This document shows positions 18,479 through 36,828 of a stretch of 38,817 nucleotides of DNA, in pieces. The DNA comes from Opitutaceae bacterium. GTDB taxonomy: Bacteria; Verrucomicrobiota; Verrucomicrobiia; Opitutales; Opitutaceae. Positions within the stretch are counted from its first letter, which is position 1; every line of letters starts with the position of its first letter. Under the pieces are notes generated by a model. That model had not been told where the DNA came from, made no database searches, and was given only the letters and a program-made list of their open reading frames with translations. The stretch lies in NCBI GenBank assembly GCA_003164715.1, contig PLTZ01000086.1:1-38817 (forward strand). The letters are read 5' to 3'. The translations under genes and the position numbers were made by a program.

Positions 18479-21400
18479 TCAGGGCACCTCGTAGACCTCG
18501 GCCAGGCCGACTCCCGACGTGGCGCCCACCCCGGAGATCTGCATCGTGTAGGCGCCCGGCTGCAGGCTGACGACGAGCGCGCTGTCGGCGCTGCCGGCGG
18601 TGAGCGCGAACGCCCCGACCGACGCCGCGATGCTCGCGATCTGCGCCGGGGTCGGGCTCGTGTTCGTGCCCCAGCCCGTGTTGGTGCCGATTGTGCTGCC
18701 GGTCGCCTGGACCGTTACCGTGAGGCTCGGCTGCGCGAGCGCCCCTGAGACCCCGAAGGCCGTCAGCGCGGGGCCATCGGCGCGGACCAGGAGCTGCTCG
18801 ACGCCCGTGCCTCCGATCACGAAGCCCGGGATAAGGATGTTGCCGCCGGTGCCCACCTGGGCCCGGGTCGCGATGTTCACGAGCCGCGCCGTCCCGGTGT
18901 ACGACACCTCGTAGATCTCGGCCAGGCCGACTCCCGTCGTGCCGCCGACCCCCGAGACCTGCACCGTGTAGGCTCCAGGCTGCAACGTCACGATGACCGC
19001 GCAGTCCGCACTCCCGCTCGCAAGCGCGAAGGCGCCCACCTGGGCCGCGACGCTTGCAATCTGCGCCGGGGTCGGGCTCGTGTTCGTGCCCCAGCCCGTG
19101 TTCGTGGCCAGCGTGGCTCCCGTCGCCTGGGCGGTCAGCTCGAGGCTCGGCTGCGCGAGCGCTCCCGCGACCCCGAACGCCGTCAAGGCGGGCCCGTCGG
19201 CCCGGATGAGGAGGGTCTCGGTGCCGCTGCCCCCAATCACAAAGCCGGGGATCATGATGTTTCCGCCGGTCTCGACCTCGCCGCGCGTCGCGATGTTGAT
19301 GAGCCGGGCGGCCCCCGACGACCCGCCCCCGATCGAGGCCGACACCGTGAGCGTGGCCGTGCCGCTCACGTTCGTGCCCGCGGCGTTTGCGAGCTGCACC
19401 CGGAAGAGGTCGCCGCTCAGCGAGACCGCCGGGTCCGTGACTGTGAGCGCGGCGGTCGTCGAGCCGCTGAAGGTTGAACTGTCGCTTAGGTTGCTCCACG
19501 TCGCTCCCGCGTCCGCCGACGTCTGCCACTGGTAGGTCACGGGGGAGCCCGATACGGTGACGGAGAAGCTGGCGTTCTGGCCCGACGTGACCGACTGGCT
19601 CTGCACCGTAATGCCGCCCGGCGGCGCGGCGACGACCATGCCCTCCATGATTGCCTGGTTGTCGCCGTCGGCGACATAGAGCGTCCCCGAGCCGTCCACC
19701 GCGATGCCCTGCGGATAGTAGAAGCGGCACCACGAGTTGTTCGTGCCATTGAGTGTCGCGACCGAGCCGCCCGGGGTGATCTCGCGCACCGCGCGGTTGT
19801 AGGTGTCGGCGACGAAGACATCGCCCGAGCCGTCGAGCGCAAGGGCGTACGGCTGGTTGAACCGCGCGACGGCGCCGATACCGTCCGAGAAGCCGAGGGC
19901 GCCGGCCGTGCCGGCGACGGTGGAGACCGTGCCCGAGGCGTCGATCTTGCGGATGGTCGCGTTGAAGAAGTCCGAGACGAAGACGTTGCCCGAGCCGTCG
20001 ACCGCCACGGCGTACGGCCCGTTGAAGCGGGCGGACCCGCCGGCGCCGTCGCCGCTGCCGGTCTGGCCGGCCACGCCGGCCAGGGTCGTGACCTGGCCGC
20101 CCGGCGTGATCTTGCGTACGGTGTCGTTTCGGGTGTCCGCCACGTAGACATTGCCCGCAGCGTCCACGGCGACGCCCTCGGGCGTGTTGAACTGCGCCGC
20201 ACCGCCCAGGCCGTCGGAACTGCCGGTGGAGCCCGCCGTCCCGGCCAAGGTGGTCACCGCGCCACCGGGCGCAATCTTCCGGATGGTGGAGTTGCCGGAA
20301 TCCGCGACGTAGACATTGCCGGCGCCGTCCACGGCCACGCCTGCGGGGCTACTAAAGCGCGCGGCGCCGCCCGAGCCGTCGGCGCTTCCGGCGGGAAACC
20401 CGCCGGAGCCGGCAAGCGTCGTCACCACGCCGCCCGTGGTCACCTCGCGGATCGTGTTGTTGTTCGAGTCGGAGACGAAGAGGTGCCCGGAGCCGTCGAT
20501 CGCGATCCCGTAGGGGTACGCGAAGAGCGCCTGGCTGCCCGTGCCGTCGGCGTCGCCCTTCACCCCGGCTCTGCCCGCGAGCGTCGTCACGGCGCCCGGG
20601 GTGTTCATCGCCCGGATCGTGTGGTTGCCCGTGTCGGCGACGTAGATGACGCCGGAGCCGGTCGACGCGATGCCGCCCGGATAGAAGAAGTTCGCCGCCG
20701 CCCCTGTGCCGTCGGTGCTGCCGCCGACTCTCGGAAACCCCGCGAGCGTCGACACGCTTCCCCCGGGCGAGATCTCCCGCACGGTCTGGCTGGAGGTGTC
20801 GGCTACGTAGACAAAGCCCGCGCCGTCGACCGCCACCGCCGAAGGGTGGTCGAAGCGGGCCTCGCTACCCTGGCCGTCCAGGGTCCCCGAACTGCCCGTG
20901 CTGCCCGCCAGGGTCGATACCGAGCCCCCCGGCGTGACCTTGCGGATCGCGCTGTTGTCCAGGTCCGCGACGTAGACGGTGCCGGCCCCGTCCACGGCGA
21001 TGCCCGCCGGATAGTAGAAGCGCGCGGCGCCCCCGGCGCCGTCCGAGCCGCCCGTCTGCCCCGCGGCCCCGGCCAGCGTCGTCACGACGCCGGCGGTGAT
21101 CCTGCGGATCGTGCTGTTGTTCGTATCGCTCACGTAGACGTTGCCCGTCGCGTCGACCGCGATTCCCTCCGGCCCATTGAAGAGCGCGGCGACACCGGTG
21201 CCGTCCGTGCTGCCGGCGATTCCCACCGTACTCCCCGCCAGGGTGCTCACGCTGCCGCCCGAAATCTTCCTGATGTTGTTATTGCCGCTGTCCGCAACAT
21301 AGATGTTGCCCGCGGCGTCGACGGCGACCGCATAGGGGTACAGGAACAGGGCGCCGGAGGTGGCCGGGCCGTCTCTGCTTCCCGCCAGGCCGGAGGTGCC

Positions 21401-21709
21401 CGCGAAGGTCGTCACGACGCCGCCCGCCGTCACGATGCGCACGGTGTGGTCGCCCCCGTCCGCAACATAGATGTTGCCCGCGCCGTCCACGGCGACGCCC
21501 GTGGGATTCATGAACCGGGCGTTGGTCCCGGTCCCGTCGGTGTGGTCGAGCGCGCTCGCGTCCCCCGCAAGGAGCGAGAATTCGTAGATGGACGCATGGG
21601 CCGGGGCCCCGGCCAGGTGCACCGCGACAGCGGCCGCAATGATGCAGCCGACGCGGCGCGCGCTTGCCGAGGATGCGGCGGTTTTCGTAATCGAGCGGTT
21701 TTTGGTCAT
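18479..21709 (-). CDS. Large secreted NHL-propeller protein with Ig-like and duplicated C-terminal domains
   Basis: ATG 21709 is my choice; ATG 21721 is in frame. After a signal peptide (hydrophobic IIAAAVAVHLAGAPAHA), about eleven NHL repeats each carry a version of FNxPxGVAVDGAGNVYVAD and TVRKITPGG, giving one or two beta-propellers over about 600 residues. An Ig-like domain follows (VTYQW..SADAGATW). Two near-identical 140-residue C-terminal domains end the protein (ARL(I/V)NIATR, LL(I/V)RADGPALTAFG, QPGAYT). NHL propellers bind proteins, RNA or glycans. No catalytic motif is seen. A cell-surface or matrix role is inferred. Confidence 0.88.
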   Translation of the reverse strand: MTKNRSITKTAASSASARRVGCIIAAAVAVHLAGAPAHASIYEFSLLAGDASALDHTDGTGTNARFMNPTGVAVDGAGNIYVADGGDHTVRIVTAGGVVTTFAGTSGLAGSRDGPATSGALFLYPYAVAVDAAGNIYVADSGNNNIRKISGGSVSTLAGSTVGIAGSTDGTGVAALFNGPEGIAVDATGNVYVSDTNNSTIRRITAGVVTTLAGAAGQTGGSDGAGGAARFYYPAGIAVDGAGTVYVADLDNSAIRKVTPGGSVSTLAGSTGSSGTLDGQGSEARFDHPSAVAVDGAGFVYVADTSSQTVREISPGGSVSTLAGFPRVGGSTDGTGAAANFFYPGGIASTGSGVIYVADTGNHTIRAMNTPGAVTTLAGRAGVKGDADGTGSQALFAYPYGIAIDGSGHLFVSDSNNNTIREVTTGGVVTTLAGSGGFPAGSADGSGGAARFSSPAGVAVDGAGNVYVADSGNSTIRKIAPGGAVTTLAGTAGSTGSSDGLGGAAQFNTPEGVAVDAAGNVYVADTRNDTVRKITPGGQVTTLAGVAGQTGSGDGAGGSARFNGPYAVAVDGSGNVFVSDFFNATIRKIDASGTVSTVAGTAGALGFSDGIGAVARFNQPYALALDGSGDVFVADTYNRAVREITPGGSVATLNGTNNSWCRFYYPQGIAVDGSGTLYVADGDNQAIMEGMVVAAPPGGITVQSQSVTSGQNASFSVTVSGSPVTYQWQTSADAGATWSNLSDSSTFSGSTTAALTVTDPAVSLSGDLFRVQLANAAGTNVSGTATLTVSASIGGGSSGAARLINIATRGEVETGGNIMIPGFVIGGSGTETLLIRADGPALTAFGVAGALAQPSLELTAQATGATLATNTGWGTNTSPTPAQIASVAAQVGAFALASGSADCAVIVTLQPGAYTVQVSGVGGTTGVGLAEIYEVSYTGTARLVNIATRAQVGTGGNILIPGFVIGGTGVEQLLVRADGPALTAFGVSGALAQPSLTVTVQATGSTIGTNTGWGTNTSPTPAQIASIAASVGAFALTAGSADSALVVSLQPGAYTMQISGVGATSGVGLAEVYEVP
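18486..19325 (-). repeat. Tandem 420-bp direct repeat encoding the duplicated C-terminal domain
   Basis: Two copies with a 420-base period (140 codons) encode the C-terminal domain pair of the NHL protein. Matching anchors are ACCTCGTAGA at 18486 and 18906 and the GGGGTCGGGCTCGTGTTCGT blocks near 18649 and 19069. The high DNA identity implies a recent duplication or gene conversion. Confidence 0.8.
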
Positions 21710-21761
21710 AGCTTGTCCCATGGGTTAACCGCTTAGAGGCCCCGCACCCGCCCCCGGTTGC

Positions 21762-24419: not shown

Positions 24420-25705
24420 GAATCGCGCTCTCGACCTCCGTCATGCAGCGCGGCCGCTCCGGCGTGGGGCAGTATGTCCTCGCCTTGGTGCGCGCGCTCC
24501 TCCCTGCGGCTGGGGAGCACGAGTTCACGCTCTTCGTCCTCGAGGAGGACCTGCCGCTCCTTCAGTTTGCCGCAGGCCCGATGCGGCTCGTGGCCGTGCC
24601 CGAGCGGCACCGTCCGCCGGTCCGGGACATCCTCTGGCACCAGGCGGAGCTTCCGCGCCTCCTTGGGCGCCTGGGAGCCGACGTCCTGCACGTCCCGAGC
24701 TACCGGCGGATGCTCTGGGCGAGGCCCTGCGCCCTGGTCGCGACAATCCACGACCTGGCGCCGTTCCACATGGCGGGGAAGTACGACGCGGCGCGGATGT
24801 TCTACTGCCGGGTTGTCGCCCGCCGGCTCGCGGGGCGCCAGGACCGGATCATCGCCGTCAGCGCCGACACCGCGCGCGACGTCGGATCCCTCTTCCGCGT
24901 GCCGGCAACCCGGATGACCGTGATCCCCAACGGCCTCGACCACGCCCAGTTCCACCCCGGGCCGCAGGCCCTCGCCCGCGGGGCCGTGTGCGCGCGGCGC
25001 GGAATCACGGGCCCCTTCTTCCTCTACGTCGCCCGCCTCGAGCAACCGGCGAAGAACCACGCCCGGCTGATCGACGCCTTCAGCCGGTTCAAGGCCGCGA
25101 CCGGCTCAACGTGGCGGCTCGTCCTGGCCGGCGGCGACTGGCACGGCTCGGAAACCATCCGCGAGCGGGTCCGCGCCTCGCCCTTCGCCCGCGAGATCGA
25201 CCTTCTCGGCTTCGTGCCGCAGGAGGAGCTCCCGCAGTGGTACCGCGCGGCCGACTGCTTCGTCTTCCCGTCGCTCTACGAGGGCTTCGGGATGCCGCCC
25301 GTTGAGGCCATGGCGTGCGCCTGCCCGGTCCTCTCGTCCCGGGCCGGGGCCCTTGCGCAGACCGTGGGGGACGCCGCCGGACTTCTGGAACCCCTTGATG
25401 TGGGCCAGATCCAGGCGCAGCTGACCCGGGCCGCCGCCGATCCCTCCTGGCGCGACCAGCTGCGAACGGCGGGCCTCTTGCGCGCGTGGCAATTCACCTG
25501 GGAGGCGACGGCAAGGGCCACGCTGGGGGTCTACCTGCGGGCCGGCGCCCGCGAGGCGCTCCCCGATGCGGTGCGCCCCCCGTGGGGTGTTGACCCGCAT
25601 CAAGATAAGGTTCCGACCCACTCGTCGGCGCACGGGGCCAGGGCTACACTCGACCCAACCTGGGGCGGCACGCCGTCCCATTTCCACCGTGATCGAACAA
25701 CTTGA
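24416..25705 (+). CDS. Family 4 glycosyltransferase of the exopolysaccharide locus
   Basis: ATG 24416 gives a 429-residue GT-B enzyme. The N-terminal Rossmann half has a GxGQY-type glycine turn (SGVGQYVLALVRALL). The C-terminal half has RLEQPAKNH and the EX7E motif in YEGFGMPPVEAMACACPVL, which binds the sugar nucleotide. It would transfer a sugar, retaining configuration, onto the growing repeat unit in the cytoplasm. The last ~45 residues are Pro/His/Arg-rich and lie beyond the usual end of the fold; they overlap the start of the next gene by 17 bases. A read-through tail is possible. Confidence 0.92.
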   Translation: MRIALSTSVMQRGRSGVGQYVLALVRALLPAAGEHEFTLFVLEEDLPLLQFAAGPMRLVAVPERHRPPVRDILWHQAELPRLLGRLGADVLHVPSYRRMLWARPCALVATIHDLAPFHMAGKYDAARMFYCRVVARRLAGRQDRIIAVSADTARDVGSLFRVPATRMTVIPNGLDHAQFHPGPQALARGAVCARRGITGPFFLYVARLEQPAKNHARLIDAFSRFKAATGSTWRLVLAGGDWHGSETIRERVRASPFAREIDLLGFVPQEELPQWYRAADCFVFPSLYEGFGMPPVEAMACACPVLSSRAGALAQTVGDAAGLLEPLDVGQIQAQLTRAAADPSWRDQLRTAGLLRAWQFTWEATARATLGVYLRAGAREALPDAVRPPWGVDPHQDKVPTHSSAHGARATLDPTWGGTPSHFHRDRTT

Positions 25706-26513
25706 AAGGGACGGATCGGCGCCGAGGCCCGCGGCCGACGAGCTCGTACGGCAGAACGCCGCGCTCGAGCGCCGCGTCGCACGCCAGGCCGAGGAGCTGG
25801 CCGGCGCCCGGGAGGAGATGGACACCCTCGCCCAGTCGATGTCCCACGACCTGCGGTCGCCGCTCCAAGTGATCGGCGGGTTCGTGGAGCTGCTGACGAG
25901 GGACTCGGGCAAGGTCCTGGGCGGGAAAAGCCGGCACTACCTGGAGCGGATCTCGACCGCCGCCGCCCAGATGGGGCACATGATCGACGAGGTCGTCGCG
26001 CTTTCCCGGACGGGCCTCGCCGAGATGCACCCCGCGCCAACCGACCTTGCGTTGCTCGTGAAGAGGGTGGTCCACGAGCTCGACGCCGGGAAGGGCGACC
26101 GGCGGGTCATCTGGCTCATCGGGCGCCTGCCGACCGTCCAGGCCGACGCGGCGCTCCTTCGCCAGGCGATTACGAGCCTCGTGTCCAACGCCCTCCACTT
26201 TACGCGGGCCCGCGAGGTCGCGCGCATCCACATCGGTGTGCAGCCCGGCGACGGCGAGCTCGTGTTCTTCGTCCGCGACAACGGCGCCAGCTTCGACATG
26301 AGGCACCGCCGGATGCTGTTCGACCCGGTCCCGCGGCAGCCCTCCTCCCCCGCGCCGAGGGGGGGAGCGATCCGGCTGGCGCACGTCCAACGGATCATCC
26401 AGCGCCACGGCGGCCGCCTGTGGGCGGAGGCCGTGCCCGACGGCGGCGCCACGTTCTATTTCTCCCTGCCCGGCGAGCTGCCGGAACTCCCATGCACCCC
26501 CACGCCGCAATGA
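25689..26513 (+). CDS. Soluble sensor histidine kinase (HisKA + HATPase)
   Basis: GTG 25689 is chosen because sequence upstream of it has no domain character. The 274-residue protein starts with a coiled coil, then the HisKA box SMSHDLRSPL with His53. The ATPase domain has N-box SLVSNALHFT, a G1-like VRDNGASFDM and a degenerate G2 (RGGAIRLAHV). It resembles the kinase end of bacteriophytochromes. There is no membrane segment or sensor domain, so the signal must come through a partner. The next gene overlaps by ATGA (26510-26513). Confidence 0.88.
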   Translation: MIEQLERDGSAPRPAADELVRQNAALERRVARQAEELAGAREEMDTLAQSMSHDLRSPLQVIGGFVELLTRDSGKVLGGKSRHYLERISTAAAQMGHMIDEVVALSRTGLAEMHPAPTDLALLVKRVVHELDAGKGDRRVIWLIGRLPTVQADAALLRQAITSLVSNALHFTRAREVARIHIGVQPGDGELVFFVRDNGASFDMRHRRMLFDPVPRQPSSPAPRGGAIRLAHVQRIIQRHGGRLWAEAVPDGGATFYFSLPGELPELPCTPTPQ

Positions 26514-27694
26514 AGCCGGTGAAGCGGGCGGCGGCGCTGGACGCGTTTGTCGCGGGGCGGCGCTCCCGCCTTCCCGCGAAGGGCCCGGCGCCGCTGGCGG
26601 TGGCGCCGCTCCACATCGTCCTCGTCGAGGACAGCGAGCCCGACGCCGAGCTGATCCAGCAGACGCTGCTGGACTCTGGCCTCAACTTCTCGCTCGCGAT
26701 CGTCGAGTCCGGCGAGGCGTTCGAGGCCGAGCTCAACCACCAGCAGCCCGGCATCATCCTGTCGGACTATTTCCTGCCGGCCTTCGACGGCAGCGCGGCC
26801 CTGGAGATCGCCAAGCAACTCGCCCCCGGCGTCCCCTTCATTTTCGTCACGGGCGTCCTCGGCGAGGAGCTCGTGATCGAGATGCTGAAGCAGGGCGCCA
26901 CCGACTACGTCCTGAAGACCCGGCTCGCCCGCCTCGCGAGCGCGGTCAACCGCGCGCTGCGGGAGACCGCGCAGAGGCGCGAGAACCAGAAGGCCCAGGA
27001 GCGGCTGCGGCGCTCCCACGACCAGCTGCGGGCCTTGACCGGCCACCTGCGGTTCGTCCGGGAGGAGGAGCGCACGCGCATCGCCCGCGAGGTCCACGAC
27101 GAGCTCGGGCAGGCGCTCACCGGCTTGAAGCTCGATCTCTCATTGCTCTCCGGCAAGACCGTCGGCCAGCGGGCGGTGCAGCGCAAGATCAAGGCCATGG
27201 CGGCTCGCGTCGATGACACGATCCTCACGGTGCGGCGGATCGCCACCGAGCTGCGGCCCGGCGTGCTCGACAACCTCGGTCTCGCCGCGGCGATCGAGTG
27301 GCAGGCCGCGGAATTCCAGGAGCGCACCTCCATCCGGTGCGAGGTGCGGATCGAGGTGAAGGAGACCATCTGGGACCGGGAGTTCAACACGATGTGCTTC
27401 CGCATCTTCCAGGAGACGCTCACGAACATCGTGCGCCATGCGAAGGCGACGCGGGTCGACGTGCGCCTCGCGCAGGTCGACCACGAGCTCGTCCTGACCG
27501 TGCGCGACAACGGCCGCGGCATCTCCGAGCAGGAGGTGGTCCACGCCCGCTCGATCGGGCTCATTGGGATGAGGGAGCGCGTGGCCCAGGTGGGCGGGCA
27601 GGTGTTCTTCTTCGGGCTGCCGGACCGGGGCACCACGGTCACCATGCGGGTGCCGATGCCCGAGGCCTCGGCGGGGGAAGGGGGCGCCCCATGA
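26510..27694 (+). CDS. Receiver-HisKA_3 hybrid histidine kinase
   Basis: From ATG 26510 the protein has 394 residues. An N-terminal receiver has Glu40/Asp41, phospho-Asp86 (ILSDYFLP) and Lys136. A coiled coil leads into a NarX-type HisKA_3 domain with phospho-His196 in REVHDELGQALTGL, and then a HATPase_c domain (VRDNGRGI; IGLIGMRERV). The receiver in front suggests phosphorylation by the preceding kinase controls this one, which then phosphorylates the NarL-type regulator encoded next. No membrane segment is present. Both flanking genes overlap by ATGA, so the three are one translational unit. Confidence 0.92.
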   Translation: MKPVKRAAALDAFVAGRRSRLPAKGPAPLAVAPLHIVLVEDSEPDAELIQQTLLDSGLNFSLAIVESGEAFEAELNHQQPGIILSDYFLPAFDGSAALEIAKQLAPGVPFIFVTGVLGEELVIEMLKQGATDYVLKTRLARLASAVNRALRETAQRRENQKAQERLRRSHDQLRALTGHLRFVREEERTRIAREVHDELGQALTGLKLDLSLLSGKTVGQRAVQRKIKAMAARVDDTILTVRRIATELRPGVLDNLGLAAAIEWQAAEFQERTSIRCEVRIEVKETIWDREFNTMCFRIFQETLTNIVRHAKATRVDVRLAQVDHELVLTVRDNGRGISEQEVVHARSIGLIGMRERVAQVGGQVFFFGLPDRGTTVTMRVPMPEASAGEGGAP

Positions 27695-28359
27695 GGATCC
27701 TGATCGCGGATGACCATGCCGTCGTGCGCCATGGCATGAAGCAGATCCTCGCGGCGGCTTTCAAGCGCTCGGTGTTCGGCGAGGCGGCCAACTCCCAGGA
27801 GGCGCTCGAGCGCGTCTGGAAGGAGCCGTGGGACGTGGTGATCCTCGACCTGACGATGCCGGGGCGCAGCGGCCTCGAGGTCCTCAAGGAGATCAAGCGG
27901 GCGCGACCGAAGCTGCCGGTCCTCATCCTGAGCATGCACCCGGAGGACCAGTTCGCCGTCCGCCTGCTCAAGGCGGGGGCGTCCGGATACATGACCAAGG
28001 AAAGCGCGCCCGAGGAGCTCGTGGGCGCGGTCAACAAGGCCGTCGCCGGCGGCCGCTACGTGAGCGCCGCCCTCGCCGACAAGCTGGCGTCGATGATCGT
28101 GCACGACGTGCAGGCCGCCCCTCACGAGAACCTGTCCGACCGCGAGTTCCTGATCCTGCGGCTCATCGCCTCGGGCAAGCCCGTGGGCGCGATCGCGCGC
28201 GAGCTCTCGCTCAGCGTCAAGACCGTGAGCACCTACCGCGCGCGGCTCCTTGAGAAGATGGGGATGTCCAACAACTCGGAGCTCGTACACTACGCGTTCC
28301 AGAACCAGCTCGTGGAGCGCCGCTCCGTGGACATGGGTCCGGCCCCCGGCGCAAAGTAG
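27691..28359 (+). CDS. NarL/FixJ-family response regulator
   Basis: The 222-residue protein has a receiver with Asp7/Asp8, phospho-Asp53 (VVILDLTMPG) and Lys103 (MTKES). A LuxR-type helix-turn-helix follows (LSDREFLILRLIASG; IARELSLSVKTVSTYRARLLEKMG). Phosphorylation would let it dimerise and bind DNA. It overlaps the REC-kinase gene by ATGA. By position its targets are probably the exopolysaccharide export genes that start 76 bases downstream, and perhaps the secreted proteins sharing the 22-bp element; both are inferences. Confidence 0.94.
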   Translation: MRILIADDHAVVRHGMKQILAAAFKRSVFGEAANSQEALERVWKEPWDVVILDLTMPGRSGLEVLKEIKRARPKLPVLILSMHPEDQFAVRLLKAGASGYMTKESAPEELVGAVNKAVAGGRYVSAALADKLASMIVHDVQAAPHENLSDREFLILRLIASGKPVGAIARELSLSVKTVSTYRARLLEKMGMSNNSELVHYAFQNQLVERRSVDMGPAPGAK

Positions 28360-28371
28360 GCAAATGCCCCG
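28350..28371 (+). promoter_or_regulatory. Candidate operator upstream of the Wzc-Wza gene (copy 3 of the 22-bp element)
   Basis: AAGTAGG (28354-28360), six bases, then CCCC (28367-28370), 65 bases before the Wzc-Wza start and overlapping the stop codon of the response regulator. It matches the Ig-gene copy at 17 of 22 positions and the NHL copy at 14 of 22. Overlap with coding sequence makes this the weakest of the three copies. Confidence 0.35.
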
Positions 28372-28435
28372 CCCCCTTTCGTGGAGCCCTTCGGATCCCG
28401 CCGCGTCCAAACACTCTACGGCCCCTAACGCACCG

Positions 28436-31285
28436 ATGCACACTATGAACCAATCCCACGGCAGGGAATTCCTGCCCTCCCCCTTCGGCGCATGGGCCGT
28501 CCTTGACATCGTGGCGCGCCGCTGGCGCTGGATCGCGGCATGGACCGTGATCATCGCGGCCCTAGGCGCCGTCCTCGCCAGCATCGTGTGGAGCCGCTCC
28601 TTCACCTCCACGGCGCAGCTCATCCGCTACGAGCCCTCCAGCGTCGAGGACGCGTACCACCCCAGGGCCCTGGCCGCGCCGAGCCTGGTCGTGATGCTGC
28701 AGGCGCCGGGCCTCCTGGAGGAGGTCGGTTCCCACTTAAGTCCACCCCTGTCCGCAAAGGAGCTCTCGGAGCACCTCGAGGTCACGCTCGACAGAAACAA
28801 CGACGTCGTGACCGTCGCCGCGTCCGGTAACACCGCCGCCGCGGCCATGGACACCGTGAACCGCTACTGCGCGGCGGCCATCGCCTACACCCAGACGCTC
28901 CAGAGGGAGGAGGCGGTCGACGTCGGCGACAACCTGAACCGCCAGCTGGCGCAGGTCGAAGTCGAGATCGCGGCCACGCGCCGGGCGATCCCGGCCGCGA
29001 GTGAGGCGAACGTGGCCTCCCTTGTCTCCAGCTCGGACGCGGCCGCGGAGTCCACGGACGGCCTCACGCAGCGAATCGAGGCCGCCCGCGAGCAGCTGGA
29101 CGACCTTCTGGTCCGCTACACCGACGCCCATCCCCTCGTGCGCGAGCAGCGCGCGAGGCTCGCCGCCCTCAACGCGGACCAGCGCCAGACCTCGTCCCCG
29201 CCCGCGGGGACCGCGCCGCCCCGCTCCCGGATGGCGCCCGCGCCGGCCCTCTCCGCCCAGTCCTACGGCAGGGTCACGCCGGAGGAGGTCGCCATGAGCG
29301 AGCGGGTCCGCGCGCTCGAGACCAACCGCGCGCTCCTGATCGAGCGCCAGAGGGCGATCCAGCCGTTCCGCGACAATCCCCCGGGATACTTCCGCGTCCT
29401 CCTGTCGGCCGCGGTGAACCCGACAAGGCTGCAGCGCTACCGGCTCCAGATCGCTTTCTTCGCGTGCCTTGGCGCGGTCCTCGGCCTTTTCGGCTCGGCC
29501 GCCCAGGTCCTGCTGGGGGAATTCCTGGACAACCGGATCAAGACCCGCACCGACGTGCGGCGCGTCACCGGGCTTCCCCTCCTCTCGACCCTCGGCGACC
29601 TGAGGCTCATGTCGCCCGCCGACCAGGAACAGTGGGCGTTCCGCGCCTGGACCTCGCTCCAGGGACGGCTCAACACCCTGAACGGCGACGGCATGATCTG
29701 CGGCGTCACCTCGGCCAGCGCCGGCGACGGGCGGTCCACATGGATTGGCCTCCTGGCGCGCGCCGCCCACAGCTGCGGATTCCGCGTGCTGACGATCGTC
29801 GCGCAGCCGGCGCAGGAGGCCCCGGCGCTGCCCGCAGGCTCCGGGACGCGGGAGCTGCCATCCGCCTCGACTGAAGACTCACGGCGGCGGGCCGCGATGA
29901 TGGAGGGCGACCTGTCGGCGCCCGGACACGTGGTCACGAGGCTGACAAGCGAGGAATGCCCGCCGGTCGTGAGCATCCCGCTGCCCGGCTGGATATGGAA
30001 CCTCGAGCGCCGCAAGGAGTGGCGCTCGGCCCTCGAGGCCTGGGGGGCCGTCCACCATGTCGTGATCCTTGTCGACCTGCCCCCCGCCCTCGTGGCCGAG
30101 TCGGTGCTGCTCGCGAAGACGCTCCCGAACCTGGCCTGGCTGGTCAACGGGGACCGCACCAGCGCGGCGGAGACCTTGACCGACCTGGAGACCCTGCGCC
30201 ACGCCCGCTGCAACCTCGTGGGCGCCGTCTTCAACCGGGAGCGCGCCACGCCGCTTAGCGGCCGGTTCGGCCGCTGGCTCGGGAGTGGCGCCCTGGCGCT
30301 CTTCGCGTGCGCGCTGGCTTCGGCGCCGGACGCCCGGGGCGCGGCCGAGGCGCCCGCGGACGCGCCGAGCTCGTTCTCGGCCTACCTCCCCGCAGCGCGC
30401 GCGGCCTGGCAGGAACACCTGACCCTCGGGCCGGGCGACGTCCTCAGCCTCCACCTCTCCGGTTTCCCCGAGCTCACGCGCGAGAACGTGACGATCGGGC
30501 CCGACGGGACGATCTCCTACCTCGAGGCGCAGAACATCGCCGCCGCGGGGCTCACCGTCGACGAGCTGCGCGCCCGCCTGAACGCCGAGCTCGGCCGGTT
30601 CCGCCAGGCCCCGGAGGCCTACGTCACGCCCGTCTCCTACGGCAGCAAGAAGTACTACGTGCTGGGCACGGTCGTGCAGAAGGGCGTGTTCACCCTCGAC
30701 CGCCCGACGACGGTGATCGAGGCGGTCTCCCGCGCGCGCGGCTTTGAGACCGGGGTGTCCAACGGCGACACGGTGGACGCGGTCGACTTCTCGCGAAGCT
30801 TCCTCGCCCGGGGCGGCCGCCGCGTGCCGGTCGACTTTGAGCGCCTCTTCACGCGGGGCGACCTCACCCAGAACGCCGCCCTGGAGCCGAACGACTACCT
30901 CTACTTCCCGGCCTCGGGCTCGGGGCAGATCTACGTCCTCGGCGCCGTCGGCCTGCCGGGCCCGGTGGCCTACGACGCCAATGTGAGCGCGCTCTCGGCC
31001 ATCGTCTCGCGCGGCGGCTTCACCCCCGGCGCCTGGAAGGCCCGCGTGCTGGTGGTGCGCGGTTCCCTGGACCATCCCGTGGCCTTCAGGGTCGACATCG
31101 ACCGCGCGCTCATGGGCGACTCGCCCAACCTCGCGCTCGAGCCCGGCGACCTGGTCTATGTGTCCGACCGGCCCTGGATCCGGGCGGAGGAGCTCCTTGA
31201 CCACGCCGCCGCGGCGTTCGTGGAGTCGGCGGTCGTCACCTGGGCCGGGCTCAACGTCGGCCCGAGCATCATCCGCAAACCCTAG
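28436..31285 (+). CDS. Wzc-Wza fusion: chain-length/co-polymerase domain joined to a polysaccharide export domain
   Basis: ATG 28436 gives 949 residues; ATG 28445 is also possible. Part 1 is a Wzz-type domain with membrane helices at about 31-51 and 335-355 and a coiled-coil periplasmic loop. Part 2 (about 385-605) is a BY-kinase-like cytoplasmic domain with degenerate ATP motifs: AGDGRST replaces PGEGKST, the Walker A' Asp is absent, and VILVDLPPAL stands for Walker B. Part 3 is a hydrophobic segment (about 616-632). Part 4 (about 660-949) is a Wza-like export domain plus SLBB repeats (LGPGDVLSLHLSG; YYVLGTVVQKGVF). The frame is unbroken, and no ATG occurs near the junction. It would couple polymerisation to export across the periplasm. 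Confidence 0.85.
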   Translation: MHTMNQSHGREFLPSPFGAWAVLDIVARRWRWIAAWTVIIAALGAVLASIVWSRSFTSTAQLIRYEPSSVEDAYHPRALAAPSLVVMLQAPGLLEEVGSHLSPPLSAKELSEHLEVTLDRNNDVVTVAASGNTAAAAMDTVNRYCAAAIAYTQTLQREEAVDVGDNLNRQLAQVEVEIAATRRAIPAASEANVASLVSSSDAAAESTDGLTQRIEAAREQLDDLLVRYTDAHPLVREQRARLAALNADQRQTSSPPAGTAPPRSRMAPAPALSAQSYGRVTPEEVAMSERVRALETNRALLIERQRAIQPFRDNPPGYFRVLLSAAVNPTRLQRYRLQIAFFACLGAVLGLFGSAAQVLLGEFLDNRIKTRTDVRRVTGLPLLSTLGDLRLMSPADQEQWAFRAWTSLQGRLNTLNGDGMICGVTSASAGDGRSTWIGLLARAAHSCGFRVLTIVAQPAQEAPALPAGSGTRELPSASTEDSRRRAAMMEGDLSAPGHVVTRLTSEECPPVVSIPLPGWIWNLERRKEWRSALEAWGAVHHVVILVDLPPALVAESVLLAKTLPNLAWLVNGDRTSAAETLTDLETLRHARCNLVGAVFNRERATPLSGRFGRWLGSGALALFACALASAPDARGAAEAPADAPSSFSAYLPAARAAWQEHLTLGPGDVLSLHLSGFPELTRENVTIGPDGTISYLEAQNIAAAGLTVDELRARLNAELGRFRQAPEAYVTPVSYGSKKYYVLGTVVQKGVFTLDRPTTVIEAVSRARGFETGVSNGDTVDAVDFSRSFLARGGRRVPVDFERLFTRGDLTQNAALEPNDYLYFPASGSGQIYVLGAVGLPGPVAYDANVSALSAIVSRGGFTPGAWKARVLVVRGSLDHPVAFRVDIDRALMGDSPNLALEPGDLVYVSDRPWIRAEELLDHAAAAFVESAVVTWAGLNVGPSIIRKP

Positions 31286-31287
31286 CC

Positions 31288-32364
31288 ATGACGCATCCCC
31301 CGCGCGCGGCGCTCATCCCCCTCCTCTTCGCCGGCTTCCTCGGCTTCGCGGGCTGCGAAAGCAACCCGATGCCGGCCGCGAGGCCGGGAACCCCCGCGGC
31401 GGCCGCCGCCGACCTTCTCCCGCTGCCCGAGCAGGCGCTCGATCTGGCGATGCTCCAGCCCCCGGGGACCCCCTTCCGCCTCGGGCCCGGCGATGTCCTC
31501 GAGATCGAAGTCGCAGGGGGCGTCGCCACCCAGGCCACCGTTACGGTGGGGCCCGACGGCAGGATCTATTACGACATCCTTCCCGGCATCGACGTGTGGG
31601 GGCTCACCCTTCCCGAGGCCCGCGACCGCCTGGCGGACGCATGGGGGAGATATGTCCGTGAAAAGCCGGTCGTCACCTTGGTCCTGCGCTCGGTCGCAAG
31701 CCAGAAGATCTGGGTGCTCGGCCGCCTCAACAGCCCGGGGGTCTACGCCCTCGGGGGGCCCACCTCGCTCCTCGACGCCGTGGCCGGGGCCGGCGGCCTC
31801 GGGGTCAGCACGCAGCCGGGCGGATCGTACTCCGAGGCGGCGGACCTGTCCCGCAGCTTCCTCGTGCGGGGCGGCCACCGGGTGCCGGTCGACTTCGCGC
31901 GGCTGCTGCAGGGTGGCGACCTTTCCCAGAACGTCTACCTCCAGCCGGACGACTTCATCTTTGTGCCCTCCTACCGAAGCGCGGAGGTGCACGTCCTGGG
32001 CGCGGTGCTGCAGCCGCGCTCGGAGCGGATGGGCGGGGCGCTGACCGTGGTCCAGGCCCTCGCGCTCGCAGGAGGCACCGTGCCGGGAGCCTGCCTTCCG
32101 AACGTCGCAATACTCCGGGGCTCGCTCGCCCATCCGCAGATCGCGATCGTGGCCGTGAACCGGGTCCTTAAGGGGCAGGCACCCGACGTGCGCCTCGAGG
32201 CCGGCGATATCGTCTATGTTCCCTACACGCCCGAGCGCGTGCTCCTGCGCTATGCGAACCTGATCGTCGACACCTTTGTCCGCACGGTCGGGGTGAATGA
32301 GGGGGCGTACACGATTTCCAGCAAGGCCCAGCCCCTCACGGTCGGGGTCAACCTGACGCCGTAA
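31288..32364 (+). CDS. Wza-like polysaccharide export outer-membrane lipoprotein
   Basis: The 358-residue protein has a lipoprotein signal peptide with lipobox FAGC (Cys23). A poly-export domain follows (RLGPGDVLEIEVAGG, VGPDGRIYYDILPGID) and then SLBB domains (IWVLGRLNSPGVYALGG, VHVLGAVLQP). Such proteins multimerise to form the outer-membrane channel for exopolysaccharide. It starts two bases after the Wzc-Wza stop. Its middle region is clearly paralogous to the fused Wza part: compare DLSRSFLVRGGHRVPVDFAR with DFSRSFLARGGRRVPVDFER. The last ~60 residues may form the membrane-spanning helix. Confidence 0.92.
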   Translation: MTHPPRAALIPLLFAGFLGFAGCESNPMPAARPGTPAAAAADLLPLPEQALDLAMLQPPGTPFRLGPGDVLEIEVAGGVATQATVTVGPDGRIYYDILPGIDVWGLTLPEARDRLADAWGRYVREKPVVTLVLRSVASQKIWVLGRLNSPGVYALGGPTSLLDAVAGAGGLGVSTQPGGSYSEAADLSRSFLVRGGHRVPVDFARLLQGGDLSQNVYLQPDDFIFVPSYRSAEVHVLGAVLQPRSERMGGALTVVQALALAGGTVPGACLPNVAILRGSLAHPQIAIVAVNRVLKGQAPDVRLEAGDIVYVPYTPERVLLRYANLIVDTFVRTVGVNEGAYTISSKAQPLTVGVNLTP

Positions 32365-32520: not shown

Positions 32521-35500
32521 ATGATTGCGGGTCCAATGAAGAGACCCCCTTCGGCTGGAACCGTCGCCCTACCCTGTCTGCTGATCGCCCTGGCGGCGCT
32601 TAGTTTCACCAGCGCCTCCGGCGCTGCCACCCTGGACGTGGTGACCGTGGCCGCCACCGTCCCCACCGCGGCCCTTGACGGCTCGTCAACGGGCCTCATC
32701 ACGTTTTCGCGGGCTGGCGACACCAGCGCCGACCTGCTCGTCGCCTTCGCGCTCTCGGGCACGGCGGTCAAATGGGTCGACTACTACCGGCTTCCCCAGG
32801 GCGACATGCCGGTCGCGGTGACGATTCCCGCAGGCTCGTCTTCGGCTACGCTGGCGATCACGGCCAAGGGCAACACCACCGGGGCGAACCCGGAGACGGC
32901 GGTCTTCACGCTCTCGGCAAGCCCCTCCTACACCGTAGGCGCGGCCGCCACCGCCACGATCATGATCGCGCCGGCGGCCTCAGCGCTGCCGACCATCATC
33001 CTGGCCGCGACGGTTCCAACGACGGCCATCGGCGGGGCGGCGCCAGGGCTCCTCACCTTCTCGCGCACCGGCGCCACCGCCGGCAGTCTCTCCATCGCCT
33101 TCGCGCTCTCGGGCACGGCGGTCAAATGGACCGACTACTACCGGCTCCCCCAGGGCGACATGCCGGTCGCGGTGACGATTCCCGCAGGCTCCTCGTCAAC
33201 GACGCTTGCCATCACGGCCAAGGCCAACATCACCGGGGCGAACCCGGAGACGGCCGTCTTCACGCTCTCGGCAAGCCCCTCCTACATCGTAGGCGCCACC
33301 GCCACCGCCACGATCACGATTGCGGCCGCGGCCGCAGCGCTGCCGACCATCACCCTGGCCGCGACGGTTCCAACGACGGCCATCGGCGGGGCGGCGCCAG
33401 GGCTCCTCACCTTCTCGCGCACCGGCGCCACCGCCGGCAGTCTCTCCATCGCCTTCGCGCTCTCGGGCACGGCGGTCAAATGGACCGACTACTACCGGCT
33501 CCCCCAGGGCGACATGCCGGTCGCGGTGACGATTCCCGCAGGCTCCTCGTCAACGACGCTTGCCATCACGGCCAAGGCCAACACCACCGGGGCGCACCCG
33601 GAGACGGCGGTCTTCACGCTTTCGGCAAGCCCCTCCTACACAGTAGGCGCGGCCGCCACCGCCGCGATCACGATCGTTCCCAGCGGGTCCCCCGTTGGCA
33701 CCCCACCGCCCGCTGCGCCGATTGTCCCGGCGCCGAACCCGCCGGCCGGAGGCGGCAGCGAGCTTACAGGCAACGAGATGGACGACACCAACCTGATCCT
33801 GCCCGCCGTGGGCGACCATGCGCTTCGGGTGCTCACTCCGACGCTTCTCGAGCTTCGAGAGATCACCACGAAGGCGCCCGATCCCGCGCAGGCCGCCAGC
33901 TGGAACTTCGTGAACGCGAGCGGCCAGTCCACCGCGCCGTCGGCCTCCCAGTTCACCGTGACGGTCGGCGGTACGACGGTCGCGGCCACGGCCGTGGGCT
34001 TCAGGCGCCGCGTCCTCTGCGCGCCGCTCAAGACCTACGACCTTAGGATCGACAACGCCCTCTACCTGCAGCTCGCGAGCCCCGTGGCCGACGGCCAGAG
34101 GGTCGTGGTCACCGATCCGGACGGGCAGATCTGGCCGGCAACCGAGAGCTTCGCGGTCACGGCGGATCCCCTGCGCTACAGCCCGGGGATCCACGTGAAC
34201 CAGGAGGGCTACGTCCCCAGCTTTCCGAAGAAGGCCATGATCGGCTACTACCTGGGCGACATGGGCGAGATGCCCGTCGCCGCCACGGCCTTCAGCGTCA
34301 TCGACGTGGCCACGAATGCGGTCGTGTTCCAGGGCCCGCTCACGGCCCGAGAGGACGTCGGCTACCAGACGACCCCGCTGCCCTATCAGCACGTGTTCGT
34401 CGCGGACTTCAGCGGCCTCACGGCCCCCGGCGAATACCAGATCCAGGTCGAGGGCATGGGGACATCGCTGCCGTTCCTGATCAACGACGGCATAGCGATG
34501 GCCTGGGTCCGCACCTACGCCCTGGGAATGTACGAGCAGCGCAGCGGAATGGCCGTGGGCCTTCCCTACACGCGCTTCGCCCGCTCCGCCGACCATACCG
34601 CGCCAGCCTCGGTGCCCGTTCCGGACAACAGCCCCGCGTTCGCCTTCACGTGGACCTGCATCAAGAGCTACACCTCCCAGGCCACGCAGGACAGCCCCCC
34701 CATGCAGTTCCCGCAGGCGGCCCCGAACCTTACCAGCAACGAAACGTCCCTCTATCCCTTCGTCAACACGGGCACGGTTGACGTCTCGGGCGGCCATTGG
34801 GACGCCGGCGATTACAGCAAGTACACCGAGAACAGCGCCCAACTCATCCATGAGCTCATCTTCGCCGTGGACAACATACCCGGTGTCTCGACCCTGGACA
34901 ACCTGGGGATACCCGAGAGCGGCGATGGCATCCCCGACGTCCTGCAGGAGGCCAAGTGGGAGGCCGATTTCCTGGTCAAGATGCAGGATGCAGACGGCGG
35001 CTTCTACTTCCTTGTCTACCCCATCAACGAGGAATACGAGAGCTCCCTTCCCCAGAACGGGGAGGCACAGGTCGTATGGCCAAAGAACACCTCGGTGAGC
35101 GCCGCGGCAACGGCTGCCCTGGCCGAGGCAGGATCCTCGCCCGCCATGAAGCGGTACTACCCGACCCAGGCCGCCGCATATTTGGCCGCTGCGCAGAAGG
35201 GATGGGCCTTCCTCCAGGCGGCCACCGCCCGGTACGGCGCCTCCCGGTACCAGAAGCTCACTTTCTACTCCGACGACTGGCAGGACAATGACGAATTCGC
35301 ATGGGCGGCCTCGGCCCTTTATGCCGCCACCGGCACGGCAGCCTATCAGACCCAGCTCTTCGCCCTTTTCCCGAACCCCGCCGACCCCTCGACCTTTCGC
35401 TGGGGCTGGTGGTCCATGTCCGAGGGCTGGGGCAACGCCATCAGGGACTACGCCTTCGCCGCCTCGAGCGGACGGCTGCCTGCATCCGACCTCAACGCCC

Positions 35501-36828
35501 CGTACCTTGCCGCGTGCCAGGCCCAGATTGTGGCCGCGGGCAACAATGTAGTCGCGTGGGCGGCCGACAATGCGTACGGCACGCCGTTCGCCCCGGCCAC
35601 AAAGGCCGTCCTTGGAGGTGGCTGGTACTTCTCCCTGGATCAGGCATCGGACGCCGCCGTGGCCTACCTTGTGAGCCCCGAGCCTGCTTTCGTGGACGCT
35701 CTTGTAAGCGCCATGAACTATGAGGGCGGCACCAATCCGGTGAATGTCACGTACCTCACCGGCCTTGGCCTCAAGCGGCAGCGCAACACCGTCGACCAGT
35801 TCGCCGTGAACTCCCGCCGCATCCTTCCCCCCTCCGGCATTCCGCTGGGCCAGGTCACCGCCGCGTTCGAATACCTCCCGAGCTACGGATCCGAGCTGTC
35901 GGAGCTGTCCTATCCGACGGACAGCGGCTCGACCAACACCTATCCCTATTACGACCGCTGGAGCGATGCCTACAATGTGACGCAGGAGTTCATCACGGTG
36001 AACCAGGCGCGCAGCCTCATGGCCACCGCCCTTCTCGCATCCCTCACTTCCAGCTCCGGCGGCTCATGGACCGCCCCCGTGGCGACCATCACCGTGCCGA
36101 GCGCAACCGTCCCGTTGAACACGCCCCTTGCGCTCACCGTGCAGGTGCCCGGCCTCGACCTGACCGGCTCCCGCATCGTCTGGGAGGGTCGCGACCAGCA
36201 GCCCGCCTTCGGCTCCACCTTCGTCGTCACGCCGGTCAACAACGGGGACCAGTGGGTCGAGGCCGAGGTCGAGTGGCCGGACGGCCGCCGCGCGTTCGCG
36301 CAAGCCGACTTCCAGGCCAACAGCCCGCTCCAGGTCTGGATCGACGACGCCCTTCCCGCGGGCGCGACTGCGTCGTCGGACGGCGGCGACAGCTGGAACT
36401 GGGTGCCGTCCAACCCGGCGCCGAAGTCCGGAAGCCTCGCGGCGCGGACCATCCTGGCCGCCGGCCTGCACGAGATCTCGTTCACCGGCGCCACCGCGCC
36501 GATGCAGGTCTACGCGGGCGACACGCTCTTTGCCTGGGTCTACCTGGACAGCGCGAACCCGCCCTCGGAGATCCTGGTGGCCTGGAACGACGGCTCGTCC
36601 TGGGAGCACCGCGCGTACTGGGGCGCCAACACCATCACGTACGGCGCCAACGGGACCGCCGGGCGCCACTATGCGGGGGTGCTTCCCGCCACCGGGGGGT
36701 GGGTGAAGCTCTCGGTCCCCGCCGCCGCCGTGGGCCTCGCCGGCTCCGCCGTCAGCGGCATGGGTTTCTCGCTCTACAACGGGCGCGTCACCTGGGACGC
36801 GATCGGACGGTCGTCCGCAAGCCCCTGA
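32521..36828 (+). CDS. Secreted multidomain glycoside hydrolase family 9 enzyme
   Basis: The 1435-residue protein has a signal peptide (about 1-35) and three 118-residue Calx-beta-like repeats (about 40-388; PAGSSS.TLAITAKxNxTGANPE). A Pro-rich linker (about 393-413), a CelD-type N-terminal Ig domain (HVNQEGYVPSFPKKA) and the GH9 (alpha/alpha)6 barrel follow. The general base pair is Asp761/Asp764 in HWDAGDYSKY, and Glu1156 (NVTQEF) is the likely acid. An Ig-like domain (about 1180-1280) and a C-terminal beta-sandwich (about 1282-1432) that looks like a carbohydrate-binding module close the protein. GH9 enzymes cut beta-1,4-glucans and relatives. Next to an exopolysaccharide locus it could trim the cell's own polymer; substrate is inferred. 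Confidence 0.92.
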   Translation: MIAGPMKRPPSAGTVALPCLLIALAALSFTSASGAATLDVVTVAATVPTAALDGSSTGLITFSRAGDTSADLLVAFALSGTAVKWVDYYRLPQGDMPVAVTIPAGSSSATLAITAKGNTTGANPETAVFTLSASPSYTVGAAATATIMIAPAASALPTIILAATVPTTAIGGAAPGLLTFSRTGATAGSLSIAFALSGTAVKWTDYYRLPQGDMPVAVTIPAGSSSTTLAITAKANITGANPETAVFTLSASPSYIVGATATATITIAAAAAALPTITLAATVPTTAIGGAAPGLLTFSRTGATAGSLSIAFALSGTAVKWTDYYRLPQGDMPVAVTIPAGSSSTTLAITAKANTTGAHPETAVFTLSASPSYTVGAAATAAITIVPSGSPVGTPPPAAPIVPAPNPPAGGGSELTGNEMDDTNLILPAVGDHALRVLTPTLLELREITTKAPDPAQAASWNFVNASGQSTAPSASQFTVTVGGTTVAATAVGFRRRVLCAPLKTYDLRIDNALYLQLASPVADGQRVVVTDPDGQIWPATESFAVTADPLRYSPGIHVNQEGYVPSFPKKAMIGYYLGDMGEMPVAATAFSVIDVATNAVVFQGPLTAREDVGYQTTPLPYQHVFVADFSGLTAPGEYQIQVEGMGTSLPFLINDGIAMAWVRTYALGMYEQRSGMAVGLPYTRFARSADHTAPASVPVPDNSPAFAFTWTCIKSYTSQATQDSPPMQFPQAAPNLTSNETSLYPFVNTGTVDVSGGHWDAGDYSKYTENSAQLIHELIFAVDNIPGVSTLDNLGIPESGDGIPDVLQEAKWEADFLVKMQDADGGFYFLVYPINEEYESSLPQNGEAQVVWPKNTSVSAAATAALAEAGSSPAMKRYYPTQAAAYLAAAQKGWAFLQAATARYGASRYQKLTFYSDDWQDNDEFAWAASALYAATGTAAYQTQLFALFPNPADPSTFRWGWWSMSEGWGNAIRDYAFAASSGRLPASDLNAPYLAACQAQIVAAGNNVVAWAADNAYGTPFAPATKAVLGGGWYFSLDQASDAAVAYLVSPEPAFVDALVSAMNYEGGTNPVNVTYLTGLGLKRQRNTVDQFAVNSRRILPPSGIPLGQVTAAFEYLPSYGSELSELSYPTDSGSTNTYPYYDRWSDAYNVTQEFITVNQARSLMATALLASLTSSSGGSWTAPVATITVPSATVPLNTPLALTVQVPGLDLTGSRIVWEGRDQQPAFGSTFVVTPVNNGDQWVEAEVEWPDGRRAFAQADFQANSPLQVWIDDALPAGATASSDGGDSWNWVPSNPAPKSGSLAARTILAAGLHEISFTGATAPMQVYAGDTLFAWVYLDSANPPSEILVAWNDGSSWEHRAYWGANTITYGANGTAGRHYAGVLPATGGWVKLSVPAAAVGLAGSAVSGMGFSLYNGRVTWDAIGRSSASP
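32638..33690 (+). repeat. Three tandem 354-bp repeats encoding Calx-beta-like domains
   Basis: The period is 354 bases (118 codons), with units starting near 32638, 32992 and 33346. Units 2 and 3 are almost identical at the DNA level, including silent positions; unit 1 is more diverged. This indicates recent expansion and makes the region prone to copy-number change and assembly collapse. Confidence 0.88.
34189..34272 (+). repeat. 84-bp block shared with the second GH9 gene (copy 1)
   Basis: Twenty-eight codons, from Ile-His-Val-Asn-Gln to Gly-Glu-Met, match 37504-37587 with only two differences, both silent third positions, while flanking sequence is clearly diverged. This looks like localized gene conversion or strong nucleotide-level constraint. 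Confidence 0.8.

Follow-up and report, generated by a model that had tools for sequence, protein, structure and literature searches.

A candidate envelope-spanning polyprotein joining a Wzc-like co-polymerase to a Wza-like export protein through a putative internal signal peptide in Opitutaceae

How many export rings serve each co-polymerase, and whether cycles of phosphorylation are needed for their assembly, are open questions in capsule and exopolysaccharide export. We describe here a gene in which the counterparts of Wzc and Wza are encoded as one chain. The gene lies at positions 28445–31285 (+) of a 38,817-nucleotide stretch of DNA from an Opitutaceae bacterium (contig PLTZ01000086.1 of assembly GCA_003164715.1), and the window below means the whole of that stretch. 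Its product joins a polysaccharide co-polymerase (PCP) with a degenerate kinase domain to an outer membrane polysaccharide export protein (OPX), here OPX1, and the next gene encodes a second OPX (OPX2). We read this gene, with a probability of roughly 85%, as a recurrently evolved polyprotein that would span the envelope by means of an internal signal peptide, giving the pseudokinase a third membrane anchor if the chain is cut, or a Wzc-Wza hybrid held at the inner membrane if it is not. Both open questions become testable in a natural 1:1 fusion whose kinase is degenerate, and the gene would add a bacterial polyprotein perhaps processed by the general signal peptidase.

The single-frame fusion that a preliminary description of the sequence had proposed is real. 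A stop-free frame at 28250–31285 (+) spans PCP and OPX1, and in the protein read from 28436 Pfam places Poly_export (residues 660–731) and SLBB_2 (residues 738–823) above their cut-offs. The same domain search was less decisive elsewhere, with Wzz (residues 23–69) at 19.3 bits below its cut-off of 25.5 and no kinase-type family found by the Pfam scan in the fused protein. Because Met-Asn is invariant at the ATG at 28445 in six aligned fused proteins, this is the better start, and the protein is probably 946 residues long. Relatives with 72% and 70% identity share the fusion point of the window's gene, and nonsynonymous change is lower than synonymous change (pN < pS) on either side of the junction.

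Hydropathy, model helices and structural comparison with VIA reveal a Wzc-type PCP-2a layout, in which two membrane helices flank a Wzz-type periplasmic domain; the Wzz-like N-terminal region with transmembrane helix 1 occupies 28502–28642 (+). A bacterial tyrosine kinase (BY-kinase) fold follows at 29516–30241 (+). Here phmmer gives a weak sequence signal against CapA/CapB (E 3.6e-4), a profile of the middle region matches CapB tyrosine kinases (E 3.3e-8), and in the predicted model the kinase region superimposes on CapAB with Z 20.4 and a root mean square deviation (rmsd) of 2.8 over 207 aligned residues. OPX1 (30413–31282, +) comprises Poly_export, SLBB repeats and a C-terminal helix (31178–31255, +; residues 912–937) that stands in place of Wza domain 4, modeled with a modest predicted local distance difference test score (pLDDT, about 50–66), the VIA alignment reaching Wza residue 376. 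The AlphaFold model of the whole protein (mean pLDDT 76) matches Wzc over residues 14–606 (Z 20.9, rmsd 8.6, 415 aligned) and Wza over residues 650–941 (Z 14.8, rmsd 25.2, 278 aligned; VIA, with Foldseek also run), and a shorter Wza chain aligns with residues 652–824 (Z 14.8, rmsd 2.7, 160 aligned). The model is of a monomer, and because its predicted template modeling score is 0.38, the relative placement of the domains is uninformative on docking. The topology suggested earlier, with helix 1 leading out, helix 2 leading in, a cytoplasmic kinase-like domain, a third helix and a periplasmic OPX, fits both hydropathy and model.

How OPX1 could reach the periplasm from within such a chain turns on the junction. 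The hydrophobic segment described there is present (residues 612–625 of 946) but weak, with a 19-residue hydropathy mean of 1.35 (helix 1, 2.43; helix 2, 1.96). Fused relatives share its build: the n-region is basic and in most reads RFxRW, the hydrophobic core is short, and the stretch that follows is variable and often rich in Ala. In split relatives, where OPX1 is a protein of its own, a signal-peptide-like N terminus stands at the same place before the same domain. On these sequence grounds we read the junction as a signal peptide retained as such. In the window the putative internal signal peptide covers 30263–30340 (+), with RFGRW as its n-region, the hydrophobic core and a candidate cut at ARG/AAE (or GAA/EAP, after 30346), the slash marking the predicted site.

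Candidate sites were counted under a rule with thresholds of our own setting that changed over three versions. The first, which took the best small-x-small triplet, often fell in Ala-rich linkers and was rejected; the second, with a broad window, found AxA-type sites in 33 of 40 junctions (26.7 ± 2.5 after shuffling, 20 of 2000 shuffles as high) and AxA/Q in 22 of 40 (6.6 ± 2.1, 0 of 2000 as high). The final rule positions the site relative to where the hydrophobic core ends, and its counts drop L095 as too short and leave the contig-edge loci L117, L206, L116 and L202 out of the split rows. Under this rule 42 of 46 fused proteins show a candidate site behind the core, defined by Ala at −1 and a small residue at −3, compared with 30.5 ± 2.8 in shuffled sequences (0 of 1000 as high), and the same type occurs in 30 of 36 split proteins (19.9 in shuffles). 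AxA/Q was found in 27 of 46 fused junctions (7.3 ± 2.2 in shuffles, 0 of 1000 as high) and 15 of 36 split proteins (2.8 in shuffles).

Several observations weigh against a signal peptide that is cut. It is unusual for signal peptidase I (SPase I) to cut after a large cytoplasmic domain. Because the junctions are Ala-rich, chance already yields AxA-type sites in about 30 of 46, and because the rows are related the shuffle counts cannot be read as probabilities. The periplasmic flank of helix 1, a control that should not be cut, also came out above expectation, with AxA-type sites in 21 of 42 proteins (14.1 in shuffles, 11 of 1000 as high) and AxA/Q in 13 of 42 (2.4 in shuffles, 0 of 1000 as high). 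The window's own site, ARG/AAE or by the rule GAA/EAP, is weak and falls below those of most relatives; L038, L075, L074 and L177 have no site under the rule, and the separate fusion L096 is the poorest, offering just LSA/SSG or RTG/ETN. Fused junctions and split signal peptides are also not identical in hydropathy, with 19-residue means of 1.50 (n = 46) and 1.79 (n = 34), respectively.

Given that the helix-1 control also scores, an AxA motif alone is no proof of a cut, and the support for one lies in its recurrence in otherwise unlike sequences. With looser bounds, the 29 AxA/Q windows at the junction are each a different sequence, whereas the 21 at the helix-1 flank comprise 20 strings, 18 of them variants of one conserved TAxAQL-like segment. 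Separate fusion branches carry sites both by the rule (TLA/QTV in L186, VQA/AES in L189 and TCA/ETL in L079) and by eye (VLA/EDS in L177 and AWG/AET in L074). In 32 of 42 proteins the junction scores lower in hydropathy than helix 1, the means for helices 1 and 2 being 1.96 and 2.19 (n = 42 each). As a separate observation, Gln at +1 of the predicted OPX1 cut is frequent in Opitutia relatives and recalls the Q-rule of Bacteroidetes (PMC5837995, as far as its available text goes); a term search of that text gave no mention of Verrucomicrobia.

Because the junction matches the signal peptides of split relatives and an SPase-I-like site is present in most fused proteins, cleavage is at least as likely as an intact fusion. 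We lean, at somewhat better than even odds, toward a polyprotein that would be cut by SPase I, leaving the third helix on the pseudokinase and OPX1 free in the periplasm. The preliminary description instead proposed a lasting covalent link that would anchor the export ring. In that alternative the protein would stay intact, with the junction serving as a genuine third membrane-spanning helix that tethers the OPX1 ring to the inner membrane at a fixed 1:1 ratio, which we consider the less probable outcome but one to be taken seriously. It agrees with the unbroken frame of 46 distinct fused rows (the sets of 46 used for the tree below and for the site rule differ by one row), with the helix predicted at residues 603–625 of the model, with basic residues on the cytoplasmic side of the junction in the RFxRW of most proteins, and with the lack of a lipobox on OPX1 itself, seen in all 39 split loci and in 43 of 45 fused ones. 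It sits badly with the equivalence of the segment to the split relatives' signal peptide and with candidate sites that persist in several fusions on separate branches. The tether that links core and OPX also varies from 10 residues (in L189) to 127, with 35 in the window, and 10 residues, about 35 Å at most, would hardly reach the tip of a Wzc-like tower; the available part of PMC12881504 gives Wzc a total length of 220 Å. Partial cutting, or some other outcome, we regard as an outside chance.

An internal translation start that yields a separate OPX1, with its own signal peptide, beside the fusion is improbable. The GTG in NLVGAVFN to which the preliminary description pointed exists in frame at 30218, and L039, L073 and L080 have an ATG just past the kinase end. 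Restart at the GTG is nevertheless unsupported, with 2 of 6 Shine-Dalgarno matches (mostly 2–4 and at most 5 of 6 among the relatives); no start position is conserved among 40 fused rows, and L062, L110, L111, L112 and L113 contain no ATG, GTG or TTG from 24 codons before to 15 codons after the end of the kinase match. That a sequencing or assembly error joined two genes has a negligible chance of being right and is in effect refuted, for although split relatives often overlap by start and stop such that one indel would fuse them, the 46 distinct fused rows come from many assemblies and pN < pS holds on both sides of the junction.

A survey of homologues for fused and split forms, as proposed with the original prediction of a fusion, turned up both, so the proteins are not always split at this point. 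In a quick tree of 82 OPX1 domains (46 fused, 36 split) with OPX2 as the outgroup, the fused/split label requires 7 changes, and a single clade of all fused rows is rejected with a log-likelihood lower by 160.5. A tree with one more row (L117, at a contig edge and labeled split, giving 46 fused and 37 split) requires 8 changes, at least 4 of them forced by starred branches. For these labels L116, whose contig starts inside the kinase end, was called fused by hand, and L083, L087, L091, L179, L181, L197 and L198 were called split with no PCP match upstream of OPX1. Because the OPX1 tree rejects one fused clade, fusion is recurrent. Typing gave 34 split loci, or 29 distinct ones once 5 repeats are set aside, and 19 of the 29 have a string ATGA at the PCP stop and OPX1 start; because of this frequent overlap a small indel could join the frames. 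Within the main fused clade three loci have split again, L081 and the sister pair L083 and L175, in which OPX1 carries roughly 150 additional N-terminal residues and a new signal peptide; the kinase ends of L081 and L175 keep an RFxRW-type stub (RFPRW/NFARW). The kinase of L088, where OPX1 was not seen, also ends in an RFxRW stub.

The first search, of 95 relatives, gave six fused and three split loci, all in the order PCP, OPX1, OPX2. A scan of named genomes then found 49 loci, 43 of them labeled as Verrucomicrobiota or a group within it, and leans toward loci with the pseudokinase motif because one of its two peptide patterns lies there. Kinase and OPX1 share one frame in 35 of the 49, a closed separate PCP frame is present in 7 (L081, L085, L086, L088, L089, L090 and L092), OPX1 has its own frame with no PCP typed in 3 (L083, L087 and L091), and 4 at contig edges were left unassigned. 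L076, L091 and L093, filed under other phyla, may be mis-binned contigs. At family level 28 of 252 genomes match at E 1e-60 (17 fused and complete, 3 fused at contig edges, 4 split, and 4 broken or unassigned); at class level 36 of 384 match (13 fused, 22 split and 1 unassigned), with a separate PCP frame seen for 18 of the split loci and no PCP match for 4; at phylum level, where typing was partial, 15 of 387 match. Sister lineages supply natural split controls, and so does a single genome, G722, which holds both a fused and a split copy (L167 and L178). A decayed copy in the same genus as the window (L042, on contig C31 of G002) retains a PCP part, with a frame jump to the OPX1 strand and the kinase region lost.

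The kinase-like domain named in the preliminary description has a BY-kinase fold by structure, but its catalytic motifs are degenerate. In the window, Walker A reads GDGRST, with Lys changed to Arg (29723–29740, +), the Walker B-like motif reads VILVDLPP (30062–30085, +), with an Asp that is Glu in most relatives, and IVAQ stands where CapB has the Walker A' motif IDGD, positions confirmed by profile alignment to CapB. Across 64 aligned kinase regions (48 fused and 16 split or cut by contig ends), the Walker A Lys is Arg in 56 and kept in 2, and the Walker B Asp is Glu in 56 and kept in 6 including the window; the three Walker A' columns hold Asp in 0, 2 and 5 of the 64, with the alignment less sure there. 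No Tyr lies between the kinase end and the hydrophobic core in 44 of 46 fused rows and a single one in the other two, and the closed split PCP tails also lack Tyr; hence neither form has a Tyr-rich tail. The same genome encodes a canonical Wzc (contig C45) with GEGKT, DCDLRR, IIDSPP and a Tyr-rich tail. Judged from its sequence, the domain is a conserved pseudokinase, with degenerate Walker motifs and no Tyr-rich tail. In the available part of PMC12881504, E. coli Wzc with the Walker A substitution K540M forms stable octamers and its complex with Wza can be purified, so loss of the Walker A Lys is compatible with an assembled state. By analogy, the family may be in a lastingly assembled state, or may be controlled otherwise. 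The available part of PMC12004946 describes EcpK/EpsV of Myxococcus and HfsB/HfsA of Caulobacter as likewise having a BY-kinase fold without catalytic motifs or Tyr tail; there the pseudokinase stands alone, whereas in the present family it shares a chain with the PCP and, in fused forms, also with OPX1.

OPX2 (31288–32364, +) is a second Wza-like protein that shares 41% identity with OPX1 of the fused gene across 283 columns, and its model has the Wza fold (Z 16.2, rmsd 11.1, 255 aligned). It is a predicted outer-membrane lipoprotein with its lipobox Cys at residue 23, which is invariant in 24 aligned copies, 23 of them picked for having a lipobox. A strict lipobox rule accepts 70 of 87 second OPX proteins (3 of the 87 belong to other loci), and in several of the 17 that it rejects a Cys is present but was skipped. 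In OPX1 a lipobox is found in 0 of 39 split and 2 of 45 fused proteins, so that the type II signal peptide and acylated Cys of Wza are not features of OPX1. The C-terminal helix has a moment of 0.45 in OPX1 and a higher one, 0.67, in OPX2. Of 115 typed loci, counting repeats of one genome, 112 have a second OPX beside OPX1; the exceptions are L057, L064 and L084.

These features suggest how the system might be built. Helices 1 and 2 with the Wzz-type domain would form the inner-membrane co-polymerase, with the degenerate BY-kinase fold in the cytoplasm. The internal signal peptide would then re-enter the membrane and send the Wza-like OPX1, as the C-terminal part of the chain, to the periplasm, where SPase I would most likely cut behind the hydrophobic core. 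The leftover signal peptide would remain as a third helix that pins the C terminus of the pseudokinase to the membrane. The freed OPX1, made 1:1 and on site, would dock on the co-polymerase, and the OPX2 lipoprotein would dock on OPX1 to form an outer-membrane ring above. Cleavage, the stacking of rings and phosphorylation-independent assembly are each steps that we infer. More than one OPX layer between PCP and outer membrane is also proposed in Model 3 of PMC9603273, which in its available part stacks one OPX of Myxococcus, whereas two distinct paralogues would be stacked here.

The titles and abstract openings of the open-licence literature searched describe no natural PCP-OPX fusion, and that literature yielded no usable report of a bacterial polyprotein cut at an internal signal peptide. 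In the fbcH polyprotein of Bradyrhizobium, cytochromes b and c1, two subunits of one complex, are made as one chain that is cut; it belongs to a different machine, and cleavage is reported there and only predicted here. Closely related by its parts is the PCP-2a Wzc with the OPX Wza of E. coli (colanic acid or capsule), which has the same domains and folds and in which Wza docks on Wzc (available part of PMC12881504). The present system differs from it in having one gene, a degenerate kinase and two OPX proteins, the first without a lipobox. The parts all belong to known families; what is new, to our knowledge, is their covalent linkage, the recurrence of that linkage and the retention of the signal peptide.

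The neighborhood is consistent with an exopolysaccharide locus. Pfam gave no match to Wzx or Wzy among the genes tested, which cover part of the frames of the window and of the rest of its contig (C11). The genes just upstream of the fused gene (25566–28359) encode two histidine kinases together with a LuxR-type response regulator, which may control the locus. Directly downstream of OPX2 are tandem GH9 genes (CelD_N plus GH9) at 32521–36828 and from 37051 to the end of the window, the second of which probably continues into the next contig stretch (L214, to about 1608). The two share a repeated C-terminal stretch of about 160 residues, and two GH9 genes also lie downstream in genome G018 (L218). 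On the minus strand, at 15298–18270 and 18482–21721, a large immunoglobulin-repeat protein and an NHL-repeat protein are encoded beside an ATP-binding cassette transporter.

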